Notes under the pieces: generated by a model
Seen by the model: only the letters and a program-made list of their open reading frames with translations
Database searches by the model: none
What the model was told of the DNA's origin: nothing
Position numbers and translations under genes: made by a program
In this document: one piece after another, positions 8,909-34,475 of the stretch
Position numbering within the stretch: the stretch's first letter is position 1
How the letters are laid out: the number at the start of each line of letters is the position of its first letter
NCBI RefSeq assembly: GCF_027889715.1
Contig: NZ_JAPJZH010000002.1
Span: 62,001-126,000 of the forward strand
Length of the DNA: 64,000 nt
DNA from: Allohoeflea poritis
Lineage (GTDB): Bacteria > Pseudomonadota > Alphaproteobacteria > Rhizobiales > Rhizobiaceae
Direction of reading: 5' to 3'

Positions 8909-8920
8909 CGCATCGTTTCC

Positions 8921-9265
8921 TCATTCCTTGATTGCTGCCGTGACGATGATCTCGACCTTCAGCGCCTGCCGGGCGAGCTTCGCTTCGCCGCAGGCGCGGG
9001 CCGGAGCGTGCCCCTCCGGTACCCAGGCATCCCAGACAGCATTCATCTCGGCAAAATCCGCCATGTCCGCCAGCCAGACGATGGCCTGCAGAATGTGCTC
9101 GCGGTCCGAGCCCGCCTCCAGCAGGAGCGCGTCGACCCGCGCCAGGCAGTCCGCGGTCTGCTCGGCGACCGTCTCGCCGTCGCCGACCTGCCCGCACAGA
9201 TAGGCAACGCCATTGTGCTTGACGATCTTGCTCATGCGCTGGCCGGTGTGCAGGCGTTCTATCAT
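8921..9265 (-). CDS. RidA (YjgF/YER057c/UK114) family protein
   Basis: A 114-residue RidA-like protein. Family members form trimers and hydrolyse reactive enamine/imine intermediates, such as 2-aminoacrylate released by PLP lyases, or act in catabolic pathways as deaminases. Visible family features are [15 protein letters not shown] at the N-terminus, the helix [38 protein letters not shown] and the PARAC segment that holds the conserved active-site Arg, ending in VEIIVTAA. It lies between the ligase and ATPase genes with 9- and 12-base gaps. A role in clearing imines from the neighbouring flavin oxidase or PLP lyase is likely but inferred. Confidence 0.85.
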
Positions 9266-9274
9266 TTGTTCATC

Positions 9275-11182: not shown

Positions 11183-11189
11183 GACCGCC

Positions 11190-11942
11190 TCAGCATGTGT
11201 AGTTCATGCCGATGCGGCCGCCATCCACATAGATCGTCTCGCCGGTAACGTAACTGGCCTTCCTGCTGGAGAGGAACGCCACGACATCGCCGATCTCGCG
11301 GGGAGTCCCGACGCGCTTGAGCGGCGTACGCGACATGACCATTTTCATCGCTTCCGGGTTGGCGTTGACGCCGGCCATCATCTCGGTGTCGATGGAGCCC
11401 GGCCCCACCGCATTGACGCGGATATTGTGCGGCGCGAGCGCGAGCGCCGCAGCCTTGGTCAATTGCATGACCCCGCCCTTGGAGGCGCAATAGGCCGGAA
11501 TTGCGGGGATTGCCACCTGTGCATTGATCGACGACATGTTGACGATGGCACCTTCGATCCCGGCCGCGATCATGGCGTTGGCCGCCCGCTGGATCGCCAG
11601 GAAGACCCCGCGCAGATTGATGTCCAGAACGCGTTGAAACGCGGCTAGATCATAGGAGAGAAAATCGCCCGGCATGGCGACGCCGGCATTGTTGACGAGG
11701 ATTTCGACCGTCCCGTGCTCGGCCTCGATCCGGTCGAACATGGCGTTGATCTGGTCCATGTCGCCCATGTCGCAGACCATGCCGACGGTTCCGCGGCCGA
11801 GTTTTTCGGCGGCTGCCCGAACGCCATCGCCATTGATATCGGCAAGGATGATGCGCGCGCCGTCTTCCGCAAGGGCCTCGGCGCAGGCATAGCCGATGCC
11901 CTGTGCGGCGCCGGTGATCAACGCCAGTGGTTTTTCCGTCAT
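11190..11942 (-). CDS. SDR-family NAD(P)-dependent oxidoreductase
   Basis: A 250-residue classical short-chain dehydrogenase. The cofactor motif is TGAAQGIGYA (about residues 11-20), NNAG occurs near residue 88, the catalytic Ser is in NMSSINA, and Tyr/Lys are in YCASKGG. It ends with the usual ITGETIYVDGG-type segment (VTGETIYVDGGRIGMNYTC). An acidic residue after the second strand (LADINGDG) suggests preference for NAD. Spacing to neighbours is 7 and 12 bases, so it belongs to the hyuBA operon. The substrate, an alcohol or 3-hydroxyacid/ketone of the pathway, is unknown. Confidence 0.87.
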   Translation of the reverse strand: MTEKPLALITGAAQGIGYACAEALAEDGARIILADINGDGVRAAAEKLGRGTVGMVCDMGDMDQINAMFDRIEAEHGTVEILVNNAGVAMPGDFLSYDLAAFQRVLDINLRGVFLAIQRAANAMIAAGIEGAIVNMSSINAQVAIPAIPAYCASKGGVMQLTKAAALALAPHNIRVNAVGPGSIDTEMMAGVNANPEAMKMVMSRTPLKRVGTPREIGDVVAFLSSRKASYVTGETIYVDGGRIGMNYTC

Positions 11943-11954: not shown

Positions 11955-13601
11955 CTAATCGTCATAGCCATAGTCGACCTTCGCCTGTTCCGGCGTGATC
12001 ATGCCCGCTTCCAGATCGGCGGCGACTCGCGCCCGGTCGCGTCTTTTCGGATCGCCATAACCGCCCCCGCCCGGCAGGCTCAGCCGCAGGCGCTTCCCGT
12101 TGCGAACCAGTTGCCTGCCCTTGGCGTTCAAAGGCGTGCCGTCGGCCAACTCGACCCGACCCGCGCCGCCCGGCCCGCCGCCCGCGCGACCGCGCGCCGC
12201 GTTTTTCACCCGGTCGAACATGGCGTTGAACCAGAAATCATAGTCCGCGCGCGGCTCGATCTCGATCGTCTGCCCGAGCCCGCCGCGCAGCGCCCCTGCC
12301 CCGCCGGAGCCCTCGCGCAAATCCTTGCGCCAGACCGTGATGGGGCCGACATGTTCGGTGGCTTCCATGCTCATCGTCGAAACGCCGGAAGGAAACGCAG
12401 TGGCCGACAGGCCGTCGGCGCATGGCCGCGCGCCGGTGCCGCCGGAATTGAACATCAGCACCTCCCGGTTGGGCAGGCCGCTATCGGGATCGCTCGGCCG
12501 CGCGGATATCTGAATGTTCCAGAGCGCACTGGCGCCTTCAGCCGGCACCGTATCCGGCATCGCCTGATGCAACGCGCCAAGCACCACATCCGGCACAAGA
12601 TGGCCCAGCACGTGGCGCACCGAAACCGGCGCCGGGCGTTTGGCGGCAAGGATCGAGCCCTCCGGCGCGGTGATCTCGAACGGCTCCAGCGAGCCGGTAT
12701 TGTTGGGAACCCGTGGCGCGATGGCGCATTTCAACCCGTAGCAGGCATAGGCGCGCGTATAGACTTCCGGCACGTTGACGCCGAAACGGCTCATGCCCGA
12801 TGTGCCCGCGAAATCGGCTTTCAGCCGGTCGCCCTCGACGGTTAGCGTCACCGCCATGGTCACCGGTGCGTCATAGCCGTCGACGTCCATTGTGTTGCGA
12901 TAGGTCCCGGCGGGAACCGAGGCGATGGCCGCATGCGTCGCCTTTCGGCTGGTCTCGATGATGAAATCCGAAAGCCCGTCCAGATCGTCAATGCCGAACT
13001 CGTCCAGCATGGTCTGCAGCCGGCGGTCTCCGATCTCGTTGCAGGCGGCCAGCGAATACATGTCGCCCACCACCTGGTCGGGCTCGCGCACATTGGCCCG
13101 CACGATGCGCAACAGCACATCGCTGACCGTGCCGCGCTCGGCAAACTTCATGATCGGGACCAGCAGGCCTTCCTCATAGACCTCGTTGCCGTCGGGTCCG
13201 AATCCGCGCCCGCCAATATCGACCACATGCGCGGTGCAGGCAAAGAAGCCGATATGCAGCCCGCCCCGGAAGACCGGCGTGACCACGGTGAAATCGTGCA
13301 GATGGCCGGTTCCAAGCCAGGGATCGTTGGTGATGAAGACATCGCCCTCGAAAATGTTCTGCGCGCCGATCTCGCGCGCAAAATGCGTCACGCTTTCGGC
13401 CATCGCATTGACATGGCCGGGCGTGCCGGTCACGGCTTGCGCGATCATGCGGCCCCTGCGGTCGAACAGGCCCGCCGACAGATCGCCCGCCTCACGCACC
13501 GACGTTGAGAAGGCGGTGCGGATCAGCGTTGTCGCCTGCTCTTCGACCACGGCGATGAGCCGGTTCCACATGATCTGATAGTCGATGGATGTCGGTGCCA
13601 T
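11955..13601 (-). CDS. Hydantoinase B/5-oxoprolinase-type subunit
   Basis: A 548-residue HyuB-family protein. It opens IDYQIMWNRLIAVVEEQATT, has SVREAGDLSAGLFDRRGRM and GTPGHVNAMA, and then the metal-site-like NDPWLGTGHLHDFTVVTPVF, all hallmarks of HyuB/oxoprolinase B/acetone-carboxylase-alpha relatives. The C-terminal GGGGYGDPKRRD is also typical. With HyuA it forms an ATP-dependent enzyme that opens lactam or imide rings (5-oxoproline, N-methylhydantoin) or carboxylates ketones. The stop of hyuA lies 4 bases upstream, so the two are translationally linked. The substrate is not deducible. Confidence 0.9.
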   Translation of the reverse strand: MAPTSIDYQIMWNRLIAVVEEQATTLIRTAFSTSVREAGDLSAGLFDRRGRMIAQAVTGTPGHVNAMAESVTHFAREIGAQNIFEGDVFITNDPWLGTGHLHDFTVVTPVFRGGLHIGFFACTAHVVDIGGRGFGPDGNEVYEEGLLVPIMKFAERGTVSDVLLRIVRANVREPDQVVGDMYSLAACNEIGDRRLQTMLDEFGIDDLDGLSDFIIETSRKATHAAIASVPAGTYRNTMDVDGYDAPVTMAVTLTVEGDRLKADFAGTSGMSRFGVNVPEVYTRAYACYGLKCAIAPRVPNNTGSLEPFEITAPEGSILAAKRPAPVSVRHVLGHLVPDVVLGALHQAMPDTVPAEGASALWNIQISARPSDPDSGLPNREVLMFNSGGTGARPCADGLSATAFPSGVSTMSMEATEHVGPITVWRKDLREGSGGAGALRGGLGQTIEIEPRADYDFWFNAMFDRVKNAARGRAGGGPGGAGRVELADGTPLNAKGRQLVRNGKRLRLSLPGGGGYGDPKRRDRARVAADLEAGMITPEQAKVDYGYDD

Positions 13602-13605
13602 CGCT

Positions 13606-15687
13606 TCAGCCCTCCTTGCGCGTCAGCAACAGGCTGCCGTCACTCTGCCCGATGGCGCGAAATGCCGCTGTGACGATGGTCGAGGTTTCATCCTCGACGA
13701 TCACCGCCGGACCCTCGACAACGACACCTGGCGCCATTGCCGAACGCTCAACCTCGCGCGCCTCAACGTCCTTGCGCTGTGCGGCGTCATAGAAACTGCG
13801 CTTCCGCCAGGGCGCCTCCGTGCCCGCTTCCGGTGATCGCCCGACCTCGGCCACCGGCGGCAAGACCGAGCCGACCACGAGCGACCAGTTGGTGATCTCG
13901 ATGGAAAGACCGTCAATGGTCCGCCCGAACAGGGTCCGATAGGCAGCCTCGAACGCATCGGTTATCGGCGCGATATCGGCGGCCGTGAAGCGCCGGTGCT
14001 CCAGCGGCACCGGGATCTCCCAGCCCTGGCCGGAATAGCGCATGAAGGCTGTCAGCCGCGTCGCCGTCGCGGCATCGCGCGCACCTGCCTTCACAAAGGT
14101 CGTCGCCTCGCCTTCAAGCGCCTCCAGGGCGGCATTGACCGCATCGGCATCGAAAGCGTCAAGGCGCTGAAACAGGCCCTTTGTCGCCTCGTAGCTGAAC
14201 GGCGCCTTCAAAAAGCCGATGGCCGAGCCGACACCGGCGCCCGGCGGGACGAGAAGCGCATCAATGCCCAGTTTCTCGCACAGGCGGCAGGCGTGCAGCG
14301 GCGCCCCGCCGCCGAAGGCAATCATGGTGAAATGCTCGATGTCGCGGCCGTTCTCCACCGTGTGGACCCGCGCCGCGTTGGCCATGTTTTCATCGACCAT
14401 CTCCGTGATGCCGAAAGCGGCATCGCCGCCTGGCAGGTCGAGCGGCGTGGCGAGCCGGCTATCGACGGCAGCGGTGGCCGATGCGGTCGAAAGTGGAATG
14501 GCGCCACCGGCAAAATTGTCCGGATCCAGCCGTCCCAGAAGCAGATTGGCGTCCGTGACCGTCGGCTCCTCGCCGCCGCGCTGATAGCAGGCCGGTCCCG
14601 GTTCGGAGGCCGCCGAGCGCGGCCCCACCTGAATGCGGCCCATGGCGTCGATCGAAGCAATGGAGCCGCCGCCCGCGCCGATCTCGACCATTTCGACGAC
14701 CGGTGTCGAAACCACCATTCCCGAGCCCTTCTTGAACCTGTAGGTCCGCGCCACTTCGAATGTGTTGGCCGTTTTAGGCTCACCGCCCTCGATCAGGCAT
14801 ATCTTGGCGGTGGTACCACCCATGTCGAACGACAACACCTTTTCGAGCCCGTGCATGCGGGCGAAGTCCGCGGCGAAGATCGCACCGCCCGCAGGCCCGG
14901 ACTCCAGCAGGCGCACGGGTTGCTCGGCCGCCGTTTCCACCGAGATGAGCCCGCCGCCAGAATGCAGCATGAAGACCGGCGCGCCGATGCCGGCATCACG
15001 CAGCCGTGCAACCAGACGGCTCAGATAGACGGCGACCTGGGGCCGCACATAGGCGTTCGCAATGACCGTATTGAAGCGCGGCAGTTCGCGCATCTGCGGC
15101 GAAACGACCGAAGAGAGCGAAATCGACAGATCCGGCGCGTGCCGGCGCAGCGCCGCTTCCATCAACTGCTCGTGGCCATCGTTCGCGTAGGCATGCAGGA
15201 AGCCGATGGCAACGGCCTCGTAACCGGCGGAGGCGATACGCAAGGCCAGCGCTTCCGCCTCCTCCGGATCGAGCGCAAGCAGCACCTCGCCATCATGGCC
15301 GACACGTTCTGCGACCGTGAACCGATCCTTGCGGGGCACGAGCGGCTTGGGCAGTTCCAGATTGAGGTCATATTGCTCGAAGCGGTTTTCCGAGCGCATC
15401 TCGATCACATCGCGAAAGCCTTCGGTGGTTATGAAGGCCAGTTTCGCACCGCGCCGTTCGATGAGCGCATTTGTAACCAGCGTCGTGCCGTGAATGACCT
15501 GCCCGATGTCTTCAACGGCAACGCCTGCCGAAGCAGCGGCCCTCGCAATTCCGTCCAGGATCGCCCGTTCGGGTTCGGCGTAGTCGGTCAGCACCTTGGC
15601 GGTGGCAAGGCCGCCGGCATGCTCAAGCGCGACATCGGTGAAGGTGCCGCCGATATCGACACCGACCCGGAGCGAACGATCGACCAT
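13606..15687 (-). CDS. Hydantoinase A/5-oxoprolinase-type ATPase subunit
   Basis: A 693-residue HyuA-family protein with the actin/Hsp70-like ATP fold: phosphate-1 loop VGVDIGGTFTDVAL at residues 8-21, GTTLVTNALIERRGAK near residue 70, and the second phosphate region SFDMGGTTAKICLIEGG. The C-terminal part holds GPAVIVEDETSTIV. The start was moved to the ATG at 15687: the longer frame (to 15777) would overlap the upstream gene by 86 bases and adds an Arg/Ser-rich stretch unlike the family. It lies 4 bases after the flavoprotein stop and 4 before hyuB. It likely phosphorylates a ring carbonyl or amide as the first ring-opening step. Confidence 0.9.
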   Translation of the reverse strand: MVDRSLRVGVDIGGTFTDVALEHAGGLATAKVLTDYAEPERAILDGIARAAASAGVAVEDIGQVIHGTTLVTNALIERRGAKLAFITTEGFRDVIEMRSENRFEQYDLNLELPKPLVPRKDRFTVAERVGHDGEVLLALDPEEAEALALRIASAGYEAVAIGFLHAYANDGHEQLMEAALRRHAPDLSISLSSVVSPQMRELPRFNTVIANAYVRPQVAVYLSRLVARLRDAGIGAPVFMLHSGGGLISVETAAEQPVRLLESGPAGGAIFAADFARMHGLEKVLSFDMGGTTAKICLIEGGEPKTANTFEVARTYRFKKGSGMVVSTPVVEMVEIGAGGGSIASIDAMGRIQVGPRSAASEPGPACYQRGGEEPTVTDANLLLGRLDPDNFAGGAIPLSTASATAAVDSRLATPLDLPGGDAAFGITEMVDENMANAARVHTVENGRDIEHFTMIAFGGGAPLHACRLCEKLGIDALLVPPGAGVGSAIGFLKAPFSYEATKGLFQRLDAFDADAVNAALEALEGEATTFVKAGARDAATATRLTAFMRYSGQGWEIPVPLEHRRFTAADIAPITDAFEAAYRTLFGRTIDGLSIEITNWSLVVGSVLPPVAEVGRSPEAGTEAPWRKRSFYDAAQRKDVEAREVERSAMAPGVVVEGPAVIVEDETSTIVTAAFRAIGQSDGSLLLTRKEG

Positions 15688-15691
15688 CGGC

Positions 15692-16966
15692 TCAGACGCT
15701 CCTGATAATCTGGTTGGCGGTAAATGCCATCTGGTAGAAGCGCGACATGAGCGGACCGTTCGAGACGGTGCTGACACCGCTCATGGGCAATGGAAGCGTG
15801 TCCGCTCCCTCGCCTGCCAAAAGGTCGGCCATGGCACGGCCGAAGATGGTGCCGGTGGTGATGCCGCGGCCATTGTAGCCGATCGGCGTATAGAGATTAT
15901 CGGCCAGTTGATGGACGCGCGGCAAATGATCCGGCGTCATGGCAATGCGTCCGTGCCAGGCCTCCTCGAACGCCACCGGACCAAGCGACGGAAAGATGCG
16001 GGCGATCCGTTTCTTCGCCCATCGATGCGACAGGCCCTTGTTGAAACTGCCGATCACGGTACCCATCGAGCCGATGATCAACCGGTCATTGGCGTCCCGG
16101 CGCAGGCTGAACATGATCCTGCCCGTATCCCACAGCCCCTGGCGCTGCTGCAGGATATGCGCCGCGTCCGGACCGAGCGGCTTTGTTGCAAGCTGGAAGT
16201 AGTGGATCAGCGTGAAACTCCGCTTGAGGCCCGGCCACAATTCGTCGGTATAGGCATTTGTGCCCAAAACCACCGCCCTGGCCGACAGATCGCCGCGATC
16301 GGTCGAAACCCGCCAAAGGTCGACATCCCGCGCAAGCTTCGTGACCCTGGTGCCGGTGCTGATTTCGGCACCCGCGCCCCTTGCGGCACGGGCAAGGCCA
16401 CGACAATAGCCCATCGGGTTGATCGTGCCGGCGCGGTGATCCACCAGGCCGCCGTGAAAGAAGTCCGATCCGATGAGCTTGCTGACCTCCTCGCGCGAGA
16501 GAAGATCAACAGGTTCGCCAAGACGGTCCCATTCCGCCTTCCGGCCGCTCAATTCGTTGAAGCCGGCCGGTCCGTGGGCGGCATGGATGGTTCCGGTGCG
16601 TGTCGCCTCGCAGCGGATCTGATGTTGCTCGATGAGGGAGAAAACATAGTCGGGCGCGCGGCTGAACTCGCTTACAAAACGACTGCCGTCTTCATCGCCC
16701 AGCACCTTGCGCACTTCCTGCGGCGGCAACCAGGCGGCGGCATTGACCAGGCCGACATTGCGTCCCGATCCGCCAAAGCCGACCTGCTCGGCTTCAAGCA
16801 CATGGGCCGACAAACCCTTCTGCGCGCAATGAAGCGCGGTCGACAGGCCCGTATAACCGCCGCCGACAATGGCCACATCCACTGTACCCGCGGCGGTGAA
16901 GTCGCCTTGAAAGTCGCTTTCCTGCGATGATAGATCCCACAATGAGATCGCCCCGTCTCGCGACAT
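15692..16966 (-). CDS. FAD-dependent amino-acid/amine oxidoreductase (DadA/PuuB-like)
   Basis: A DAO-fold flavoprotein of 424 residues. The ADP-binding motif is VDVAIVGGGYTGLSTALHCAQ, starting about 30 residues in, and the C-terminal FAD contact is IGYNGRGITTGTIFGRAMADL. LWDLSSQ and GGSGRNVGLVNAA match gamma-glutamylputrescine oxidase and glycine/sarcosine oxidase relatives. It should oxidise a C-N bond of an amino acid, cyclic amine or N-alkyl group to an imine, which suits the RidA gene in the same operon. The ATG at 16966 is preferred because GGAG lies 10 bases before it; ATGs at 16996 and 16990 have no ribosome site. It is the first gene of the hyu operon, facing element A. Confidence 0.85.
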   Translation of the reverse strand: MSRDGAISLWDLSSQESDFQGDFTAAGTVDVAIVGGGYTGLSTALHCAQKGLSAHVLEAEQVGFGGSGRNVGLVNAAAWLPPQEVRKVLGDEDGSRFVSEFSRAPDYVFSLIEQHQIRCEATRTGTIHAAHGPAGFNELSGRKAEWDRLGEPVDLLSREEVSKLIGSDFFHGGLVDHRAGTINPMGYCRGLARAARGAGAEISTGTRVTKLARDVDLWRVSTDRGDLSARAVVLGTNAYTDELWPGLKRSFTLIHYFQLATKPLGPDAAHILQQRQGLWDTGRIMFSLRRDANDRLIIGSMGTVIGSFNKGLSHRWAKKRIARIFPSLGPVAFEEAWHGRIAMTPDHLPRVHQLADNLYTPIGYNGRGITTGTIFGRAMADLLAGEGADTLPLPMSGVSTVSNGPLMSRFYQMAFTANQIIRSV

Positions 16967-17035
16967 GTGACTTGTGCTCCTGTCTCGCATCGGCATTTCG
17001 ATGTGTCCGCAACTGTTGCCCTAAGGTGCCGTTTG

Positions 17036-17072
17036 TGTCAATATTCGAAATACATGTTTCATATATCAGAAC
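17036..17072 (+). promoter_or_regulatory. Shared 37-bp element, copy A (candidate IclR operator)
   Basis: It begins TGTCAATATTCGAAATACAT and ends ATATATCAGAAC, 8 bases before the rhodanese ATG and 69 bases from the hyu operon start. By hand alignment it matches copy B at 28 of 37 positions without gaps and copy C at 24 of 36. It is AT-rich in a GC-rich genome and lies in a divergent promoter region. Confidence 0.65.
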
Positions 17073-17080
17073 AGTGACCC

Positions 17081-17482
17081 ATGACCAAATTGAAGACAAC
17101 GGCCGCCGCCATGGTCGAATCCGCCCGCGCGCGCATTAAGGAAATCGAGACGAAAGACCTCATCGGACGGTTGGACGATCCCGACCTGGTCATTGTCGAC
17201 ATCCGCGACATACGCGAGCGCCAGCGTTCGGGCTTCATCCCCGGCAGCTTCCATGCGCCACGCGGCATGATCGAATTCTGGGTCGACCCCGAAAGTCCCT
17301 ACTTCAAGGAGGTCTTCGGCCAGGACAAGACCTTCGTCTTCCACTGCGCATCGGGCTGGCGGTCGGCCCTGACGGTCGCAACGCTCAATGACATGGGTTT
17401 CAAGGCAGCGCATTTGCGCGAAGGCTTTTCCACCTGGGCCGAACAGGGCGGTCCGGTGACGTTCCCGGAAAAGAAAGACTGA
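17081..17482 (+). CDS. Rhodanese-like sulfurtransferase domain protein
   Basis: A 133-residue single rhodanese domain, cytoplasmic. Family features are VIVDIRDIRERQRSGFIPGS (the DxR/ER motifs), then HAPRGMIEFW, and the active-site loop HCASGWRSAL with the catalytic Cys at about residue 89. The last helix GFSTWAEQGGPV is also typical. Such proteins carry persulfide sulfur from a donor to an acceptor. The gene is divergent from the hyu/flavoprotein operon and convergent with the IclR gene (17-base gap). The candidate operator A ends 8 bases before its ATG. A role in handling sulfane sulfur released by the pathway is inferred from context. Confidence 0.88.
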   Translation: MTKLKTTAAAMVESARARIKEIETKDLIGRLDDPDLVIVDIRDIRERQRSGFIPGSFHAPRGMIEFWVDPESPYFKEVFGQDKTFVFHCASGWRSALTVATLNDMGFKAAHLREGFSTWAEQGGPVTFPEKKD

Positions 17483-17499
17483 CCGGCACCGCGCGCAGG

Positions 17500-18282
17500 T
17501 CAGAGCAGCTTCAGCCGCTGTGACACACTCTGGGCGGCATCGGCGACCAGCCCGCCAAGCCGCTCCTCGGTTCCATCCATCAGCTTGCGGCGGGGAATGG
17601 AGATACCGATTGCCGCAACGGCCTCACCCGCGGGCAGCGTGAGCGCAGCGCCGAAACTCAAGCCCCGTTCGCGAAACTCGCCGGTATCGAAGGCATAGCC
17701 GCGCTTGCGCGTCAGTGCGATGTCCGCGTCGAGCGCCTCGATATCCGTGATCGTCCGGTCGGTATAGCGCACCAGATTGTGTTTCACCGTATCGCGCAGC
17801 GTTCCGTAATTGGCAGCCAGAATGGCCTTGCCGGTCCCGACACAATGGATGGGCGCGCTGCCTCCGATCGGATTCCAGGACCGGATCGGGTCCGAACTGT
17901 CGATCTTGTCGATATAGACGATCTGCAGATGTTCGGGGACAGCCAGATAGATCACTTCCCCCGTCTCGTTGGCCAGATGCTGCATTGCGGGCCGGGAGAC
18001 CTCGCGCAAATTGAGATTTTCGACGCCGGCCCGCCCGATCTGCCATGTTTTGAGCGTGGCCGAATAGGTTTTGTCCCGATTGTTTCTTACATAGCCGAGT
18101 GCGCAGAGCGTCTGCAGCAGGCGAAATGTGTTCGACTTGGTCAGGCCGAGTTCCTTGGACAGTTCCGTAACGCCTTTCCCACCGCGGTGCGCGGTGAGCG
18201 TTTCCAGGATCATAAGCCCCTTTGAAAGGGTGGAATCCAGTTTCGGCGCATCTGTCTTGCGCCCATCTACACTATCCGCCAA
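17500..18282 (-). CDS. IclR-family transcriptional regulator
   Basis: A regulator of about 260 residues. An N-terminal winged HTH (LSKGLMILETLTAHRGGKGV, then TELSKELGLTKSNTFRLLQT) is followed by the IclR effector domain (GEVIYLAVPEHLQIVYIDKI, then HCVGTGKAILA, then GYAFDTGEFRERGLSFGAAL). Family members bind small acids and usually repress or activate neighbouring catabolic operons. I chose the TTG at 18282 because GGGAGGG lies 6 bases before it. The frame remains open to a TTG at 18321, but that one has no ribosome site and would overlap the Mo-enzyme gene. It is 16 bases downstream of the Mo enzyme, so it is probably transcribed from the element-B promoter and autoregulated. Confidence 0.9.
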   Translation of the reverse strand: MADSVDGRKTDAPKLDSTLSKGLMILETLTAHRGGKGVTELSKELGLTKSNTFRLLQTLCALGYVRNNRDKTYSATLKTWQIGRAGVENLNLREVSRPAMQHLANETGEVIYLAVPEHLQIVYIDKIDSSDPIRSWNPIGGSAPIHCVGTGKAILAANYGTLRDTVKHNLVRYTDRTITDIEALDADIALTRKRGYAFDTGEFRERGLSFGAALTLPAGEAVAAIGISIPRRKLMDGTEERLGGLVADAAQSVSQRLKLL

Positions 18283-18298
18283 GAAATTCCCTCCCGAT

Positions 18299-20608
18299 TC
18301 ATCGATCCCCTTTTGCCACAAATGTCGGCGGATCGAAAACCGTCACCTCCGGAACCGGTTCGTCAAACCGGCGCATCTGCACAAGCGCGGAATGCGCGGC
18401 CGGTCCCTGCGCCAGGGATGACGTTCGCAAATCGTGGGTCAGAACATTGGGGTTGCCATGGCGATCGCGGTGATGCTCCGCATCGAAATCGGGGTCGTAC
18501 CAGGCTCCGGTCCACAGAAAGACACAGCCCTTGGCGACATCATCGGTCACCCGCGCGCCGGCAAGACAGCGACCGCGCGCGTTGAACAGTTCGACCACAT
18601 CACCATCGACGATGTCCCGGGCTGCAGCGTCATCGGGGTGCACCAGCACCGGCTCACGGCCCTCGATCTTCATGCTGCGACTGTAGGCGCCATTGTCGAG
18701 TTGGCTGTGCAGCCGCGTGCCCGGCTGACCGGAGATGAGGTACAGCGGATAGGCATCCGCCAGGCCGTCGGCGACATCGCGCGGCGCGCGCCACGTCGCA
18801 TGACCCGGACAATCATCGAGGCCGAAACCGGCAATGGTCTCGCTGTAGATTTCGATCCGGCCGCTCGGCGTCGGCAGGGGGTTGGCGTCGGGATCGGCAC
18901 GAAAATCGGCCAGAAAGACCTGCTCTGGCGACGGGTCGGGGACCTGGATCAAATCGCCGGAGATGAATGCGTCCCAGTCCGGCAATTCGACCCCGGTATC
19001 GGCACCGTTCCGGCGGGTAACCGCCCACATCGCGCGCAACCAGTCTTCGGTGGATTTGCCTTCGGTAAACGCCGCCCGGGTACCCAGCCGCGCGGCCAAC
19101 TCGGCAAATGTCTCATATTCGCTGCGCGCCTCGCCCGGCGGCGGCACCAGCGCCGGCATGGGAATGAGCCCGTTGTCGGACTTGCCGCCGCCGAAGTCCA
19201 GGCGCTCCTGCGGCGCGGCAACCGGCAGGACGATGTCGGCATGGCGCGCGGTGGCGGTCCAGTTCATCTCGTTGACGATGATCGTCTCGGGCTTCTGGAA
19301 CGCCGCGCGCAGCCGGTTGAGATCCTGATGGTGGTGGAACGGATTGCCGCCGGCCCACCAGACCATGCGAATGTCGGGAAAGATCCTTTCCGAACCGTCG
19401 AACCGGTAGCCGCCACCCGGATTGAGCAGCATCTCGCTTGTCATGGCGACGGGGATGAAGTCGTCCACCGGATTCCGGCCCTGTGGAAAGCTTCCCCAGG
19501 CGAACAGACGTTCCATATTGCCGATATTGCCGTTGACGCCGTAGCCGACCGTGTAACCGCCACCTGGCAGGCCGATCTGGCCAAGCATGGCGGCGAGCGT
19601 CACCGTCATCCATAGCGGCTGCTCCCCATAATCGGCCCGCTGCAAGCCGGCAGCAGTCGCAATCATCGTCCGGCCGCCCGCCATCCGGCGGGCAAGATCG
19701 CGAATGCGGTTGGCTGCAATGCCCGATTTTTGCTCGGCCCAGTCGGCATTTTTGGGCGTGCCGTCGGTCTCGCCGGTCAGGTAAGCGGCAAAGCGGTCGA
19801 AGCCGACCGTGTAGCGATCGAGAAACGCCCGGTCGTGCAAACCCTCAGCCAAAAGCGTATGCGCCAGACCCATCATCACGGCGGTATCGGAACCCGGCTG
19901 CGGGGACAACCATTCGGCGTTCAACTCCGGCATGCCGTCGCTGCGCAATGGGCTGAGGTTGACGAACCGGACGCCGGCATTCGCACAGGCGCGCAGATTG
20001 TCATAGCCCCGGTGGCGCGATAGTCCGCCATCGCTGACCTGCATGTTGCGCGGCGCGACACCGCCGAACATGACGACCAGATCGGCATGTTGTGCGATCA
20101 CCGGCCATCGCGTCGCCTGAGCCACCTGTTCACGGTAGTTCATGACGATGTGCGGCATCAGAACCAGGGCGGCCTGATAGCTGTAATTGCCTTCTGAGCG
20201 CACAAAACCGCCAACGGTGTTCAAAAATCGTTTGAGCTGGCTTTGCGCGTGGTGGAACCGGCCGGCGCTGGCCCAGCCGTAGGAGCCGGCGAAGATGGCC
20301 TCGTTGCCGTAGACATTGCGCACCCGTTCGATCTCGACCGCCAGGCGGTCAAGCGCCTCGTCCCAGGACACCTCAACGAAAACATCCCTGCCGCGCTCGC
20401 CGCGCGGCGTACCCGGGTCACCTTCGAGCCAACCTTTGCGGATCGCCGGGCGCAGAATCCGCGCCCGCCCATTCAGACTGCCGGCGATATTGCCGTTGAT
20501 CGCCGAGCCCGACGGATCATCCGGGTGGGCCGCGACGTCGACGATGCGACCGTCGTTCACGGAGACAATGCCCGGCCCCCAATGGCTGGATGTCAGATTC
20601 TTGACCAT
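18299..20608 (-). CDS. Molybdopterin oxidoreductase, BisC/TorA/DMSO-reductase type
   Basis: A 769-residue Mo-bis-MGD enzyme without an N-terminal Fe-S cluster and without a Tat signal, so it is cytoplasmic like BisC. The N-terminus TSSHWGPGIV and the block FAGSYGWASAGRFHHAQSQL are typical of biotin-sulfoxide/TMAO/DMSO reductases. The Mo ligand is predicted to be Ser at about residue 143 in GNYSYQAA, the position of the Ser ligand in DMSO reductase. MGD contacts VVMFGGVAPRNMQVSDGG and WWAGGNPFHHHQDLNRL follow. It should reduce an S-oxide or N-oxide. The ATG at 20608 has AGGA just upstream; a GTG at 20662 lies within element B and is rejected. The IclR gene follows directly. Confidence 0.87.
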   Translation of the reverse strand: MVKNLTSSHWGPGIVSVNDGRIVDVAAHPDDPSGSAINGNIAGSLNGRARILRPAIRKGWLEGDPGTPRGERGRDVFVEVSWDEALDRLAVEIERVRNVYGNEAIFAGSYGWASAGRFHHAQSQLKRFLNTVGGFVRSEGNYSYQAALVLMPHIVMNYREQVAQATRWPVIAQHADLVVMFGGVAPRNMQVSDGGLSRHRGYDNLRACANAGVRFVNLSPLRSDGMPELNAEWLSPQPGSDTAVMMGLAHTLLAEGLHDRAFLDRYTVGFDRFAAYLTGETDGTPKNADWAEQKSGIAANRIRDLARRMAGGRTMIATAAGLQRADYGEQPLWMTVTLAAMLGQIGLPGGGYTVGYGVNGNIGNMERLFAWGSFPQGRNPVDDFIPVAMTSEMLLNPGGGYRFDGSERIFPDIRMVWWAGGNPFHHHQDLNRLRAAFQKPETIIVNEMNWTATARHADIVLPVAAPQERLDFGGGKSDNGLIPMPALVPPPGEARSEYETFAELAARLGTRAAFTEGKSTEDWLRAMWAVTRRNGADTGVELPDWDAFISGDLIQVPDPSPEQVFLADFRADPDANPLPTPSGRIEIYSETIAGFGLDDCPGHATWRAPRDVADGLADAYPLYLISGQPGTRLHSQLDNGAYSRSMKIEGREPVLVHPDDAAARDIVDGDVVELFNARGRCLAGARVTDDVAKGCVFLWTGAWYDPDFDAEHHRDRHGNPNVLTHDLRTSSLAQGPAAHSALVQMRRFDEPVPEVTVFDPPTFVAKGDR

Positions 20609-20624
20609 GTTTCCTGAGTTGATT

Positions 20625-20661
20625 GTATTGATATTCGGCACATTTATTCCGTATATTGACA
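20625..20661 (-). promoter_or_regulatory. Shared 37-bp element, copy B (candidate IclR operator)
   Basis: On the minus strand it begins TGTCAATATACGGAATAAAT and ends CCGAATATCAATAC, 16 bases before the Mo-enzyme ATG. Its two ends form an imperfect palindrome: on the plus strand GTATTGATATTCGG faces the complement of GTGTCAATATACGG (10 of 14 match). The divergent MetC-like gene starts 53 bases away. Confidence 0.68.
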
Positions 20662-20714
20662 CAAAAGACGATGCCTGTCATCATCGATTCAAACTCGGGA
20701 GGGGACGTTGCCCT

Positions 20715-21905
20715 ATGGCAGAAACCGATAGGGAAATCAAAGACTCTCTCGTTCGAGCAGGCCGGCCGGACCGGGTCGAGGGGCGCCACGTCAACATGCC
20801 GGTCGAGCTTGGCTCAACCATGGTGTTCGACACTCTGGCGGCATTCGAGGCTGCCCGCGCCGAGCGCTATCGGTCCGGCACACTCTATTACAATCGCTAC
20901 GGCAACGCGGCCAGTTTCAAGCTGGAAACGGCACTGGCAACGCTTGAGGGCGCATCCGCCGTCACCTTGACCTCATCGGGTGTTGCGGCCATCACGCTGA
21001 CCCTCATGGCGCTGACGGCGCCCGGCACCCACTTGCTCGTCGCCGACAATGTCTACGGCAACACGCGAGCCTTCTGCGACGGTGTTCTGGCCGGGCAGAA
21101 TGTCGAGGTCGAATATTTCGATCCGATGATCGGCGGCCGGATTTCCGCGCTGTTCCGGCCCAATACGGCCGCGATCATGTTCGAGGCGCCGGGCTCAGGC
21201 ACATTCGAGGTCTGCGACGCGCCGGCGATCGCCGAGGCCTGCAGGGCGCATGGCGTGACAAGCGTCTTCGACGGCACCTGGGCGACGCCGGTCTTCTGCC
21301 GGCCGCTGTCGCTCGGCGTCGATGTGCTCGTCTATTCCGCATCCAAATATATCAGCGGTCATTCCGACTGCATGCTGGGCGTTGTCGCATGTTCGGACGC
21401 CGATCTTGCGATGCGCATCCGCAAACACGTCATGGCCGTCGGCGACAAGACCGGCGGACAGGAGGTCATGCTCGTTCTGCGCGGCCTGCGCACGCTCGAT
21501 GTACGCATGAAGGCGATCGACGCGGCAGGGCGGCGGATCGCCGACTGGTTCGCCGGACAACCGCAGGTCAAACGATTGCTTCACCCGGCCTTTGAGAGCT
21601 GCCCCGGCCACGAATTCTGGAAACGCGACTATAGCGGGGCGGCGGGCCTCTTCGGCGTCATCTTCCACCCCTGCGCGGATGATGATGTGCGGGCCTTTGT
21701 CGACGCGCTGCGCCATTTCGGCATCGGCGTGAGCTGGGGCGGTTATGAGAGCCTCGTCCTGCCGGTCAGGCCGGTGCGCACCGCGCAGCGGTGGGACGAG
21801 CCTGGGCCCCTGATCCGTTTCAACATCGGGCTTGAGGACACGCAAAGCCTGATCGATGACCTTGACGCGGCGCTGCCGCTGATGAACACCGGACTGGAGG
21901 CGTAA
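20715..21905 (+). CDS. PLP-dependent cystathionine beta-lyase/gamma-synthase family enzyme (MetC-like)
   Basis: A 396-residue Cys/Met-metabolism PLP enzyme. Visible are YYNRYGNAASFKLETALATLEG, the substrate/PLP loop TSSGVAAITLTLMAL, ADNVYGNTRAFCDGVL, and the PLP Lys at about residue 211 in SASKYISGHSDCMLG. The C-terminal SWGGYESLVLPV, in which the Tyr and Ser residues resemble those of MetC, argues for a C-S lyase. It could cleave a cysteine thioether or S-conjugate to a thiol, ammonia and a 2-oxoacid. GGAGGGGA precedes the ATG. It is divergent from the BisC-like gene, and a VOC protein gene follows after 2 bases. Confidence 0.85.
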   Translation: MAETDREIKDSLVRAGRPDRVEGRHVNMPVELGSTMVFDTLAAFEAARAERYRSGTLYYNRYGNAASFKLETALATLEGASAVTLTSSGVAAITLTLMALTAPGTHLLVADNVYGNTRAFCDGVLAGQNVEVEYFDPMIGGRISALFRPNTAAIMFEAPGSGTFEVCDAPAIAEACRAHGVTSVFDGTWATPVFCRPLSLGVDVLVYSASKYISGHSDCMLGVVACSDADLAMRIRKHVMAVGDKTGGQEVMLVLRGLRTLDVRMKAIDAAGRRIADWFAGQPQVKRLLHPAFESCPGHEFWKRDYSGAAGLFGVIFHPCADDDVRAFVDALRHFGIGVSWGGYESLVLPVRPVRTAQRWDEPGPLIRFNIGLEDTQSLIDDLDAALPLMNTGLEA

Positions 21906-21907
21906 TC

Positions 21908-22543
21908 ATGCACAACCGGATCGACCACTTCGCCATCGGCGCCGCCAGTTTGGACCAGGGCGTTGCGGCCATGCGCGAGGCCCTGGGCGTCGAGGTGCCC
22001 GCAGGCTCGAAACATGACGCGATGAGCACCCATAATTGTGTCATGCAGGCCGGCAATGAGAGTTTCCTCGAGTTGATCGCCATCGACCCCGACGCCCCTG
22101 ACCCGGGCCGGGTACGCTGGTTCACGCTCGATGATTCGGAGACGCGAACGCGCCTCGAAGAGCGACCGCGCGCGCTATGCTGGGTGGTCAACACCGACGA
22201 TCTCGACGGCGTGCTGGCGGCCAGCCCGATCGACCTTGGCGAGGTGGTCGACTTCAGGCGCGGCGACCGCACATGGCGTCTGACCGTACCGCGTGACGGG
22301 TCGCTCCCCGAGGGCGGATTGGTCCCGGCCTTCATCGAATGGTCGCCCGGGCCGCACCCGTCAGCGGGGCAGCAGGATCTGGGCGTGCGGCTGAAGACCG
22401 TCAACCTGACTCACCCCGATCCGGGCAGGTTGCGCACCGTGTTCGAGACGCTTTCGATCGCCCATCTGGCGCAGATCGAGGAAGGCGACCGGGCGCTGGC
22501 CTTCACGCTGGAAACGCCGAACGGATTGGTGGTTATCGACTGA
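21908..22543 (+). CDS. VOC-superfamily protein (glyoxalase-like)
   Basis: A 211-residue protein that opens NRIDHFAIGAASLDQGVAAM, followed by the HNCVMQAGNESFLELIAI strand pair. This is the arrangement of the glyoxalase-like domain family (Glyoxalase_3 type), in which His and Glu serve as metal ligands. The second half (VRLKTVNLTHPDPGRLRTVF) repeats a weaker betaalphabeta module. Its start lies 2 bases after the MetC-like stop, so the two are one transcript. VOC enzymes isomerise, cleave or epimerise small metabolites; the substrate here is unknown. It is convergent with the permease gene (12-base gap). Confidence 0.75.
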   Translation: MHNRIDHFAIGAASLDQGVAAMREALGVEVPAGSKHDAMSTHNCVMQAGNESFLELIAIDPDAPDPGRVRWFTLDDSETRTRLEERPRALCWVVNTDDLDGVLAASPIDLGEVVDFRRGDRTWRLTVPRDGSLPEGGLVPAFIEWSPGPHPSAGQQDLGVRLKTVNLTHPDPGRLRTVFETLSIAHLAQIEEGDRALAFTLETPNGLVVID

Positions 22544-22555
22544 CACCCTAAATCG

Positions 22556-23665
22556 TCAGCGGCGATCCACCTTCATGCGGTTTTTCAGATATTCGCCGTA
22601 CTGGCCGAGCGAGAAGATGAAGACCCAGTAGATGAGGCCGACGAAGGCGTAGACCTCCAGGTAATAGGGCGCCCACTCGCCGGTACCGAAGGCGGCGCCT
22701 GCCGAGGCCAGCATCTCGAAGAAGCCGATGATGATGACGATGGCCGTCTCCTTGAAAGTGAGCACGACCATGTTGATGGTCGCCGGCAGCGCGTGACGGA
22801 ACACCTGCGGCAGGACAATATCGAACAGGACCGTCCATTGGCTGAGGCCGAGCGCCTTTCCCGCCTCCCACTGGCCTTTCGGAATGGCCTGAAACCCGCC
22901 CCGGAAGACCTCGGCCTGATAACAGGCGAAGAAGAGCGCGAAGGCGAGGATGACGCGCCAGATCTTGTCGCCCTGCAGCCATTCCGGAAGCAGGATCGGC
23001 AGGATGACGGCGGCAGTGAAAAGCGTTGTCAGCAAAGGCAGAGACCGCACGAAATCGATGATCAGCGTCGCCGTCAGCCGCACCACCGGCATCTTCGACC
23101 GGCGCATCAGCGCAAGCCCCAAGCCCATCGGCATGCCGAGCAGGACGACGGAGGAGAACAGGAAAAGCGTCAGCGACAGGCCACCCCACTGGTCGGTTGT
23201 CACCTGCGGCAGGCCGATCAGGCTGCCTTCCATCAAGAGGTAATAGGCAGCGAAACCGACGATCCACAACGGGATCAGACGACGCGCCGACCAGAAGGCC
23301 GGCACGCAAGACAGGACCACGGTGGCGATGATCGAGATGCATGCGGCTGTCGATCGCCAGTGCTCTTCAAAGGGATAGAGGCCGAACAGGATCAGGCGGT
23401 GGCGCGCGTCGATCACGGACCAGCACGCCCCTGCCCCGTCGACCTTGCACTGATCCACCGCCTGTGCCGACCAGACCGCGCGCACCAACGCCCAGTCAAC
23501 GGCAAGCCACAGAATGTAGAGCAGCAAACCGAAAACCATGACGGAAATGGCCGTGTCCGCCGGCGTCGCAAACGCCCGGCGTTGCAGCATCCGGATGAAG
23601 CGGCTCATGCGGCTGGGCGCTTTGACCATTTCCGTTGAGGTATCGGAGGCGCTGACGACAGCCAT
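22556..23665 (-). CDS. Polar amino-acid ABC transporter permease (AapM/GltK-like)
   Basis: A 369-residue inner-membrane subunit. The long N-terminal region has a first membrane segment (AISVMVFGLLLYILWLAV) and a periplasmic loop. The conserved HisM-type core follows, with the ATPase-contact EAA loop FQAIPKGQWEAGKALGLSQW and VLFDIVLPQVFRHALP. The C-terminal AYYLEVYAFVGLIYWVFIF-type segment (YYLEVYAFVGLIYWVF) matches AapM. The ATG abuts the stop of the preceding permease. A dedicated ATPase is not next to it. Confidence 0.88.
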   Translation of the reverse strand: MAVVSASDTSTEMVKAPSRMSRFIRMLQRRAFATPADTAISVMVFGLLLYILWLAVDWALVRAVWSAQAVDQCKVDGAGACWSVIDARHRLILFGLYPFEEHWRSTAACISIIATVVLSCVPAFWSARRLIPLWIVGFAAYYLLMEGSLIGLPQVTTDQWGGLSLTLFLFSSVVLLGMPMGLGLALMRRSKMPVVRLTATLIIDFVRSLPLLTTLFTAAVILPILLPEWLQGDKIWRVILAFALFFACYQAEVFRGGFQAIPKGQWEAGKALGLSQWTVLFDIVLPQVFRHALPATINMVVLTFKETAIVIIIGFFEMLASAGAAFGTGEWAPYYLEVYAFVGLIYWVFIFSLGQYGEYLKNRMKVDRR

Positions 23666-24805
23666 TCAGTGAGCCTTCAATTGCATGCGACGGTTGATAA
23701 GGTCGACCAATTGCGCCAAGGCGAAATTGATCAGCAGGAAGCAACCCATGAGAATGGCAATCAGTTCCAGCGTCTGGCCGGTCTGCGTCAACGAGGTCGA
23801 GACGATCATGAACAAGTCGCTGAAGCCGATCGCCACGCCGATCGTGGTCGCCTTCATGACGAAGATCCACTGATTGCCCAGGGGCGGCACGATGCTGCGC
23901 AGCGCCATCGGCAGCTTGATACGGCTCCATATCGTCCGGCCGCTGAGACCGAGCGCCTGGCCCGCCTCGATCAGGCCTTTCGGAACCTCCGCAAGGCCGC
24001 CGCGCACCACCTCGGCAATATAGGCCGAGCTGTAAAGCACGATGGCGACGATCATGGCGACGAGCTCGATGGTCATCTGCATGCCGCCCAAAAAGCGCAA
24101 CCCCTTCAGGGCGGGCACGGAGACGATCGACTCACCCTGCGGCACGAATATCAGCAGACAAACGGCAATCGCGATCGCGGTTCCGGACGCCCAGATGACA
24201 AGCGCCCGCGCCACCGAGATCCGCACCAGCAGCACGATGACACCCAGCAGGATCGAACCGAGCAGCAGGATCAAAGCGATCTCGCCCGAAAGATTCAGCG
24301 CCGGCAGCATCAGCCCGCGATTGGAAAAGAAGGCGATGTCGCCCAGCGTGTGGGCCTGCCGCGGCCCCGGCAAATGGATGAACACTGCATACCAGAAGAC
24401 CAGTTGAAGGATGAGCGGAAGATTGCGGAAAAGCTGCACATAGGCGCTCGCGATGGTCTGCAGCGCCAGGTTGGACGTATCGCGGATGCTGCCGATGACA
24501 AAGCCGAGCACGGTCGAAAGCACAATGCACAGGGAGCCAAGAAACAGCGTGTTGATGAAACCGATCGTTAGTGTGCGCAGATAGGTGTCATCGACGGAAC
24601 GCGGCAGCAGCGAAAACGAATAGCTCCATCCCGTGGCGCGTTCGAGGAAAGCGTAACCGCCGGTGATGCCCAGCGCATTCAGATTGGTCTGCGCGGTCGT
24701 ATAGGTGCTCCAGATGATCACCATGATGGCAATCACGATCACGGCCTGGATCAGCAAACGCCGGACCTGCGCCGTTTTGCGGGATTGCGCTGTTGCGGCA
24801 GCCAT
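23666..24805 (-). CDS. Polar amino-acid ABC transporter permease (AapQ-like)
   Basis: A permease of about 379 residues that pairs with the one downstream. It has an N-terminal membrane segment (LLIQAVIVIAIMVIIW), the family segment GFINTLFLGSLCIVLSTVLG, and the EAA loop GLAEVPKGLIEAGQALGLSG with TIWSRIKLPMALRSIVPPLGNQ. The ATG at 24805 is preferred over the GTG at 24814, since GGTGG lies 6 bases before the ATG. A strong hairpin separates it from the binding-protein gene upstream. Confidence 0.88.
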   Translation of the reverse strand: MAAATAQSRKTAQVRRLLIQAVIVIAIMVIIWSTYTTAQTNLNALGITGGYAFLERATGWSYSFSLLPRSVDDTYLRTLTIGFINTLFLGSLCIVLSTVLGFVIGSIRDTSNLALQTIASAYVQLFRNLPLILQLVFWYAVFIHLPGPRQAHTLGDIAFFSNRGLMLPALNLSGEIALILLLGSILLGVIVLLVRISVARALVIWASGTAIAIAVCLLIFVPQGESIVSVPALKGLRFLGGMQMTIELVAMIVAIVLYSSAYIAEVVRGGLAEVPKGLIEAGQALGLSGRTIWSRIKLPMALRSIVPPLGNQWIFVMKATTIGVAIGFSDLFMIVSTSLTQTGQTLELIAILMGCFLLINFALAQLVDLINRRMQLKAH

Positions 24806-24835
24806 CGGCCCCACCGGATCTTGAGTTGGAGAGTG

Positions 24836-24865
24836 CGGCCCCGCGCCTGCACCAGCGCGGGGCCG
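24836..24865. promoter_or_regulatory. 11-bp GC hairpin between binding-protein and permease genes
   Basis: CGGCCCCGCGC (24836-24846) pairs exactly with GCGCGGGGCCG (24855-24865) around an 8-base loop. It lies after the stop of the minus-strand binding-protein gene and before the first permease. There is no T-tract. It likely causes partial termination or shields the 3' end, so more binding protein than permease is made. Confidence 0.6.
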
Positions 24866-24871
24866 TGCGGA

Positions 24872-25909
24872 TCAGTCGATGATCGGCGTATAAAGAACGC
24901 CGCCGTCCTTCCACAGCGCGTTCAAGCCTCGATCGAGCTTGTAAGGCGAATCCTTGCCCAGGTTGCGGTCATACATCTGGCCGAAATTGCCGATCTCGGC
25001 AATGACCTCGCGCGCCCAGCTATCGCGAAGGCCGAGCCGTTCACCTATGCCGGGATCCGCGCCGAGCAGCCGCGCGACGGTCGTGGATGGCGGATTCGCC
25101 GCGATCTCGTCGACGTTCTCGCTGGTAATACCCAACTCCTCCGCCTTGATCAGGGCCGCGATCAGATAGTTGACCAGATCGACGAACTCCTCATCGCCCT
25201 GGCGCATGGCGGCAGAGATCGGGTCGGTCGAGAGCTGGTCCGAAAGGATTACATGCGCCTCGGAATCATCGACCTCGGTGGCCCGGATCACCGCCAGATT
25301 GGGACCCCAGCCGGCAAATGCGTCACAGCGTTTTGCCAGATAGGCGGCCCGCAGTTCCGCACCCTTCTCGTAGGACACCATCGTGTGCTCGATATTGTTC
25401 GAGCTGAGGAAATCACCGGCAATGCGTTCGATGGTCGTACCGGCCTCAACGCAGATCGTGCCGCCATCCAGTTCAGCAGCCTCCGTCACCCCAAGATCGG
25501 CATGGGCCATGAATTGGGCGGCGCCAAGAAAATACGGGATCGAGAATTGCAGGCCCAGCTCGGTGTCCCGGCCCATCGTCCAGGTCGTTGCCTTGATGAT
25601 CAGGTCCACATCGCCCGACTGGAGCGCCGGAAAACGCTGCGCCCAGCTGAGCGGAACGATCTGGGCCTTGTCGGGATCGCCAAGGATCGCCGTGGCAAGA
25701 CCCCGGCACATATCGATGTCCAGCCCTTTCCACTCATTGCGATCATTGACCTCGACAAATCCGAAGAAGCTGCCGTTGTGACCGGTACACAAGAGCGTGC
25801 CCCGATCGATGATCTTCTGTGTTGTCGGCGACGGATCGGCAGCGCCGGCCAGGACGGGTACCGAAGCTGCCAATGCGGCGACGGCGAATTTTCCTATGGT
25901 TTTGAGCAT
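24872..25909 (-). CDS. Amino-acid ABC transporter substrate-binding protein (AapJ-like)
   Basis: A 345-residue periplasmic binding protein (SBP_bac_3 fold). The signal peptide spans about the first 23 residues (FAVAALAASVPVLAGAAD). Mature-domain features include LDIDMCRGLATAILGD, VDLIIKATTWTMGRD, then VEAGTTIERIA and VILSDQLSTDPISAAMRQGD. The C-terminal GNFGQMYDRNLGKDSPYKL is the AapJ-type ending. The ATG at 25909 has GGGAG seven bases upstream; longer reading frames lack a signal peptide. Element C ends 18 bases before the ATG. It captures an amino-acid-like ligand for the permeases that follow. Confidence 0.9.
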   Translation of the reverse strand: MLKTIGKFAVAALAASVPVLAGAADPSPTTQKIIDRGTLLCTGHNGSFFGFVEVNDRNEWKGLDIDMCRGLATAILGDPDKAQIVPLSWAQRFPALQSGDVDLIIKATTWTMGRDTELGLQFSIPYFLGAAQFMAHADLGVTEAAELDGGTICVEAGTTIERIAGDFLSSNNIEHTMVSYEKGAELRAAYLAKRCDAFAGWGPNLAVIRATEVDDSEAHVILSDQLSTDPISAAMRQGDEEFVDLVNYLIAALIKAEELGITSENVDEIAANPPSTTVARLLGADPGIGERLGLRDSWAREVIAEIGNFGQMYDRNLGKDSPYKLDRGLNALWKDGGVLYTPIID

Positions 25910-25927
25910 CGCATTCTCCCAGTATTT

Positions 25928-25963
25928 GTTCTGATATTCAGCACACATGTTCCAGTATTGAGA
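25928..25963 (-). promoter_or_regulatory. Shared 36/37-bp element, copy C (candidate IclR operator)
   Basis: On the minus strand it begins TCTCAATACTGGAACATGTG and ends GCTGAATATCAGAAC, 18 bases before the binding-protein ATG. By hand alignment with one gap it shares 27 of 36 positions with copy B. The divergent acyl-CoA ligase gene starts 174 bases away. Confidence 0.62.
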
Positions 25964-26137
25964 ATGGCCGGGTTTTGGTGTTAATGTCAATAGAACAGAG
26001 CGAACGAGCTTTTCAGCCCCGCACAAAATGGAGTGTAGCTTTGAGCAGTCATCCCTGTCTTTTGCCCGTTCGGAACCGGCGTCGCCCATGCCGCGCCGCG
26101 CCCGCCAGGTGCGGTCTGAAGAGCGGATTGAGATAAG

Positions 26138-32508: not shown

Positions 32509-32517
32509 GAAAGGGTC

Positions 32518-33846: not shown

Positions 33847-33856
33847 GGCGCGCCCC

Positions 33857-34363: not shown

Positions 34364-34438
34364 CTTCGATCCCTCACCGGCGCGACGCGAACCCTCGCCG
34401 ACCCTGCGGCGGGCTCGCTATCGCGGAATGGGGTGGTC

Positions 34439-34460: not shown

Positions 34461-34475
34461 AATGGAAGGTCACGA

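Follow-up and report, generated by a model that had tools for sequence, protein, structure and literature searches.

A conserved palindromic element as the probable operator of an IclR-family regulator in a gene island of Allohoeflea poritis

Regulators of the IclR family recognize palindromic sites of two kinds, which a survey of the family (PMC8222616) gives as group 1, GKTYCRYW3-4RYGRAMC, and group 2, TGRAACAN1-2TGTTYCA. According to that survey, three-box sites of the family join both groups, tandem palindromes 18-22 nt apart fit tetramers, and the sites lie in a zone from -20 to -80 before the start codon. Here we describe a 64-kb stretch of the 5.58-Mb genome of Allohoeflea poritis (G000:C22:62001-126000, contig NZ_JAPJZH010000002.1; the whole stretch is called the window below), in which a first-pass annotation had noticed an element of about 37 bp in three divergent promoter regions and had proposed a local regulon around a gene for an IclR-family regulator. 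Support for that regulon comes from a genome search using a model built from other species, from footprints in 13 further clusters, from the presence of the element and the IclR gene in the same five of 387 genomes, and from the fit of the element to the site structure of the family. The site stands before several operons, is kept in relatives and has few counterparts elsewhere, copy C being marginal genome-wide. We consider it quite probable that the IclR-family regulator encoded in the island uses the element as its operator and thereby controls the gene groups of the island.

Direct reading of the window bore out the coordinates of the three copies, A, B and C (Table 1), and the start codons of the rhodanese, BisC and binding-protein genes were found 8, 16 and 18 bases past them, as had been described. 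The identities of A with B (28/37, ungapped) and of B with C (27/36, with one gap) were reproduced; the likeness of A and C also stood, at 25 of 36 positions with one gap in place of the 24 counted earlier. The 28/37 match of A was never reached in 20000 mononucleotide shuffles of the gap that holds B (largest value, 24), and a gapless scan of the window gave B as the best other match of A, and A as that of B. Copy C was recognized via its own orthologues, which show that its CAATAC does not line up with the CAATAT of the other two copies. A and B represent a single 39-bp element, to which C is related through the downstream 28 bp or so; the one shared element first proposed holds for A and B, and C is a variant in which the first box differs and the -10 is a separate one. 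A weak look-alike at 49679-49717 on the minus strand, with 24/37 matches to A, stands just before a gene for an RpiR-family regulator, and was not among the matches at E (expectation value) ≤ 10 to the model R1 described below, with 150 of 950 candidates scored.

A scan of genome contigs with the IclR protein gave 15 loci. Ten of these (L006-L015) have orthologues of at least 63% identity adjoining other island genes; nine of them we take to be from alphaproteobacteria and the tenth from a metagenome-assembled genome of Granulosicoccaceae. In L015, only the genes for the VOC protein and the FAD-dependent oxidoreductase (DAO) stand alongside IclR, and L010 and L014 have only the A side. An order-level sample added three more clusters (G236, G256 and G355), and the remaining loci (L016-L020) have IclR homologues of 33-40% identity, with no cluster gene there at 45% identity or above. 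Footprinting in relatives, which had been put forward with the annotation as a check, found the A copy in all 14 clusters with an orthologous IclR gene and the B copy in all 11 clusters that have BisC and its upstream gap in the stretch examined (the window is included in both counts). The B copy is present in G236 though no MetC match lies beyond it, and in L010, in which the cluster is split over contigs, it lies before BisC on another contig. In L015, there is no rhodanese gene between IclR and DAO, and the element is still there. A C-type copy was found in all nine clusters with an orthologue of the binding protein (at least 70% identity) plus its upstream stretch, namely the window, L006, L007, L008, L009, L011, L012, L013 and G256; the contig of G236 does not reach the start of its binding-protein gene. 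The nearest relative of the binding protein in G355 (52%) has no element directly upstream; the element stands instead before a gene of the ornithine cyclodeaminase/mu-crystallin family (L089 7096-8124) which precedes the binding protein and is possibly an extra regulon member.

A further copy of the cluster is present in Marinovum algicola (L051, L062; G201 C43:323422-327205), the second in this species, with its own A and B elements and with matches to HyuA, DAO, rhodanese, IclR, BisC, MetC and VOC. Three of the eight BisC matches (L068, L072 and L073) contain one in-frame TAG or TGA, pointing to broken genes, sequence errors or recoding.

The architecture of the element was compared between 25 A/B copies and nine C copies (34 in total). 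The dyad axis lies between columns 19 and 20 in both sets, and the symmetry of the A/B set was reached by 1 of 2000 column permutations. Since the copies are dyad-symmetric, the reverse strand also scores as an element. The best place for the group-2 consensus is at columns 12-27 in 26 of the 34 copies, and that for group 1 is at columns 22-38 in 28 copies and at columns 1-17 in the other six; the group-1 palindromes at these two places have centres 21 nt apart, inside the range of 18-22 nt given in the survey (PMC8222616). The fit to the group-1 consensus (0.832, with a permuted mean of 0.680) was reached by none of 1000 column permutations and that to group 2 (0.739, with a permuted mean of 0.587) by two of 1000. 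The majority consensus matches group 1 at the left and right sites in 14 and 15 of 17 positions for A, 13 and 13 for B, and 14 and 13 for C, and single copies fit the two consensuses imperfectly (7-13/14; 12-17/17). The centres of the elements lie about 27-38 nt before the start codon, inside the published zone of -20 to -80. As judged from the sequence, the palindrome consensus of both groups, the tandem spacing and the distance to the start codon look like those of IclR-family operators. We read A and B as putative four-box elements, with two group-1 palindromes whose middle boxes form a group-2 palindrome. In C the last three boxes are clear and the first is different and little conserved; as the C consensus nevertheless matches the group-1 site on the left, C may have a fourth box.

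The element is closely tied to predicted promoters. A hexamer led by TTG lies 17 nt upstream of CAATAT in 12 of the 14 A copies, and WTGMCA lies at the same distance in all 11 B copies; the mean scores of this -35-like hexamer were lower at every other spacing from 14 to 20. In the C set, a -10 of CATTCT or CATATT is combined with TTGAC[AT] at 17 or 18 nt in seven of nine copies, the two Roseibium copies being the exceptions. These features bear on two other explanations. The conserved stretch might be the core of a strong promoter (an extended -10, TGTCAATAT, and the -35) that was inherited with the cluster and contains no operator, as might be expected from GTGTCAATAT varying least within the A/B copies and lying 17 nt past the conserved -35-like hexamer. 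We regard this as very unlikely, given that the C-type copies are without GTGTCAATAT yet retain the downstream boxes, and that dyad symmetry and downstream conservation are no promoter features. The element might also act in the RNA leader, its right half being transcribed, since the start predicted from the -10 is inside the element; such a role is scarcely credible for copies that are dyad-symmetric and match a DNA-binding consensus.

To search the genome, we trained model R1 exclusively on 15 A/B copies from L007-L015, that is, from other species, and scored 150 of the 950 first-look candidates in the 5.58-Mb genome. The best places were A (E = 3.5e-9), B (6.4e-7), the reverse strand of A (0.45) and C (0.60), and A, B and C were the best three distinct places among the candidates scored. 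This motif search, also proposed with the annotation, gave no strong match outside the cluster; A and B leave no room for doubt, and C takes the third place narrowly. Two weak matches on another contig were set aside: C2:44612 (E = 0.96), which lies inside an open frame, and C2:37218 (E = 2.56). Model R2, trained on six C-type copies from other species, gave C as its sole place in the genome at E ≤ 10 (E = 0.21), with 150 of the 324 candidates scored, and within the window it found C at E = 0.0024. Both models were also applied to 72,883 bases of G236, G256 and G355, which were absent from the training: R1 found the six A/B copies at 1e-7 or below and R2 found the C copy of G256 at 4.9e-8. These three genomes had been picked via element and IclR screens, and their A/B copies are not a random sample. 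A palindrome just before the IclR homologue of L017, which an early position matrix had indicated, was dropped, as R1 with the filters off did not recover it.

The order screen covered 387 genomes under filters that were stricter; in the results shown, 17 candidates were scored for each genome. R1 at E ≤ 1e-4 marked G000, G236, G241, G256 and G355, and the IclR protein at E ≤ 1e-70 marked the identical five and none besides; G241 is apparently the genome of L006. In the family sample (198-199 genomes), the strong element occurred in G000 and G012, which are the two genomes with an IclR match at E < 1e-100. G012, the species of L007, has a third, partial match (L063 C11:40637-40665, E = 5e-4) between two divergent open frames, which could be a distant regulon member.

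Several observations weigh against the IclR protein as the binder of the element, or against the extent of the proposed regulon. Copy C is marginal genome-wide, its E of 0.60 being followed by 0.96 for the next, chance-like place; ungapped over 39 columns it matches A at 20/39 and B at 23/39, and it was not outstanding in the ungapped scan of the window, in which its best partners reached 22/36. In L014 and L015, BisC lies at another place, and the contig carrying it gave no element match at E ≤ 5. No element lies directly before IclR in L010, L014 and L015, and autoregulation is therefore not universal. No convincing divergent -10 was found for DAO or MetC 17 nt from the TTGACA of the other strand, the mean matches to TATAAT being 1.9 (DAO) and 2.9 (MetC) of 6. 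The distant IclR homologues of L016-L020 have no clear related site in their own loci, and in their whole genomes the best R1 matches had E values of 0.059-1.3 or there were none, the genome of L020 having twelve weak ones; likewise, G033 and G074 of the family sample, with IclR homologues of 39% identity, gave no strong element match. The genome searches scored only part of the first-look candidates. Finally, the element and the IclR gene lie in one conserved cluster, and their co-occurrence supports, and does not prove, IclR as the binder.

A regulator encoded elsewhere in the genome might thus bind the element and control the same genes: all of the co-occurrence comes from one conserved cluster, binding by IclR is a prediction, and weak partial matches to the element, with E of 0.001-0.009, occur in six of 198 family genomes that are without an IclR orthologue (no IclR match at E ≤ 1e-50), about two such matches at E ≤ 0.01 being expected by chance in 198 genomes. 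We think this unlikely, as only one regulator gene is seen in the cluster, the A. poritis genome gave no strong element match outside it among the 150 of 950 candidates scored, the site fits the consensus and spacing of the IclR family, and the helix-turn-helix stretch of the IclR protein (LTKSNTFRLLQ) is invariant in 14 of 14 orthologues.

With the island's IclR protein as the binder, the following mechanism can be proposed. A and B cover the predicted -10 and transcription start, and C begins at the end of the -10. An operator that covers or directly follows the -10 is in the usual position for repression. A dimer of dimers of IclR would sit on the element as a block to RNA polymerase until it is released by an inducer, for which the imported substrate or an intermediate is the probable candidate. 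Copy A would coordinate the rhodanese gene with the operon for DAO, hydantoinase, short-chain dehydrogenase/reductase (SDR), CoA ligase, RidA and ATPase; copy B, BisC-IclR with MetC-VOC; and copy C, the binding protein and permeases. IclR is probably transcribed from promoter B, because its gene directly follows BisC, and placed in this way it would control itself. The DAO operon, which is divergent from A, is probably controlled too, because L015, without rhodanese, keeps the element before DAO, and because the operon carries an ATPase that fits the transporter. Binding, tetramer formation, repression, the inducer and control of both divergent operons are what we infer from the sequence alone.

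The IclR protein is a family member by PF09339 (1.1e-15) and PF01614 (1.7e-32), both above the gathering scores, and all nine of its NCBIfam equivalog matches are below the curated cut-off. Overall, 85 of 256 residues are invariant among the orthologues, a total lowered by several rows of the alignment being cut at the ends. As previously stated, IclR is the sole regulator seen by family scans between 8165 and 25909. Nearly all NCBIfam matches of the island proteins are below the curated cut-offs, so that only family names are given here; exceptions include MetC, which matches TIGR01324. The ABC (ATP-binding cassette) ATPase at the end of the DAO operon is likely the partner of the permeases under C; the gap before it was considered as a fourth element site and ruled out, this gap being the RidA-family gene.

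The divergent gaps described at each copy are seen in the window; the acyl-CoA ligase described as the neighbour of C is not conserved in that place. Among the compared loci, it adjoins the binding-protein gene in the window and in the nearest relative, L006, and in no other; a related ligase of G355 lies some 6 kb beyond VOC, and the frame opposite the binding-protein gene in L007 runs in the same direction. Because of this restriction to the window and L006 and the codirectional frame of L007, a divergent gap is not what defines the element set, and no conserved association with the C element was found for the acyl-CoA ligase operon as a regulon member. Adjoining the island, at 29443-35897 of the window, are genes for a Zn-dependent dehydrogenase, a histidinol-dehydrogenase-family protein and parts of a TRAP (tripartite ATP-independent periplasmic) transporter, which presumably resemble clusters for utilization of the sulfonate 2,3-dihydroxypropane-1-sulfonate (DHPS).

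Table 1. Element copies, predicted promoter hexamers and genes of the island (positions in the window)
Feature	Position	Strand	Remarks
Rest of DAO operon: SDR, CoA ligase, RidA-family protein, ABC ATPase	8165..11942	-	
Amino-acid-type ABC ATPase	8165-8908	-	Last of DAO operon
RidA-family protein	8921-9265	-	Between CoA ligase and ABC ATPase; kept in seven aligned relatives
Hydantoinase/oxoprolinase subunits A and B (HyuA, HyuB)	11955..15777	-	Family scans
FAD-dependent oxidoreductase (DAO)	15692..16996	-	First operon gene; nearest NCBIfam model L-pipecolate oxidase AmaA, 436/600, below cut-off
Rhodanese promoter, predicted -35 TTGCCC	17016..17021	+	17 nt before CAATAT
Element copy A	17035..17073	+	39 columns; putative four-box; before rhodanese, divergent from DAO-hydantoinase operon
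Rhodanese promoter, predicted -10 CAATAT	17039-17044	+	Columns 5-10 of A
Single-domain rhodanese	17081..17482	+	Start codon 17081; family scan
IclR-family regulator	17500..18270	-	Start GTG 18270 or upstream TTG 18321; directly after BisC
BisC-family molybdopterin S/N-oxide reductase	18299..20608	-	Start codon 20608; TIGR00509, 909 bits, below cut-off of 1017.55
Element copy B	20624..20662	-	39 columns; putative four-box; overlaps predicted -10 of BisC-IclR promoter
BisC promoter, predicted -35 ATGACA	20676..20681	-	17 nt before CAATAT
MetC-like pyridoxal phosphate (PLP) enzyme and VOC/Glyoxalase_3 protein	20715..22543	+	Divergent from BisC
Binding protein and two permeases, amino-acid-type ABC transporter	22556..25909	-	Start codon 25909; downstream of C
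Element copy C	25927..25965	-	Variant: three clear boxes and different first box; just after binding-protein promoter -10
Binding-protein promoter, predicted -10 CATTCT	25961..25966	-	Separate from A/B -10
Binding-protein promoter, predicted -35 TTGACA	25985..25990	-	18 nt before CATTCT

The gene content suggests, with low confidence, that the island degrades a sulfur-containing, possibly cyclic, amino acid S-oxide, because an S/N-oxide reductase, a pipecolate-oxidase-like flavoprotein, RidA, a Cys/Met-type PLP enzyme and rhodanese are present together with hydantoinase-like subunits, a CoA ligase and an amino-acid-type transporter. A more specific and rather doubtful idea is that the island encodes an undescribed pathway for the breakdown of an imino acid that is a cyclic sulfoxide, of the chondrine/thiomorpholine-carboxylate type, and that IclR switches this pathway through a four-box operator that would supply one -10 and possibly a divergent -35. 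Substrates of this type are known from seaweeds. Leads for a cyclic-imino-acid pathway, besides the S/N-oxide reductase, the flavoprotein, RidA, the PLP enzyme and rhodanese, are the hydantoinase/caprolactamase-like HyuAB and the gene next to the G355 element, whose best NCBIfam model is pyrroline/piperideine-2-carboxylate reductase (202/322 bits, below cut-off). In the literature searched, no paper was found on the gene set of this island or on a bacterial thiomorpholine/ketimine reductase. The island of about 15 conserved genes, mostly in alphaproteobacterial genomes, would be united in one regulon, for which there are a candidate regulator and precise positions of the operators, and this makes the inducer, and thereby the pathway substrate, directly testable by a reporter. 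As regulation, the local IclR circuit is well supported yet ordinary, and the interest lies in the pathway it defines.

Among described regulators, BhcR is the best NCBIfam match of the IclR protein of the island, at 165 bits, far below the cut-off of 350. We assume that the gene set of the island is unlike that of the beta-hydroxyaspartate cycle of BhcR. The protein itself was not met in the accessible part of the survey of the IclR family (PMC8222616). With the tandem and three-box sites described there, the element has in common the group-1 and group-2 palindromes, their spacing and the distance to the start codon; it differs in that A and B each combine a pair of group-1 sites with a group-2 site into a single four-box element, and in that the first box of C is different. 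The three-box operators of PcaU, PobR and HmgR have alternating half-sites and an external box, as does the element, although they carry a core of the GTNCG-N5-6-CGNAC type (PMC8222616) and the present element is A/T-rich. The position of the element at the -10, unlike that of PcaU, PobR and HmgR operators, suggests repression. The operator of E. coli IclR at aceBAK is likewise an A/T-rich palindromic motif (PMC8222616) that overlaps the promoter, whereas the genes differ and the IclR protein of the island, with 121 of 380 bits, is far below the IclR equivalog cut-off. The predicted regulator and its operator set would be a further case of established IclR-family control.

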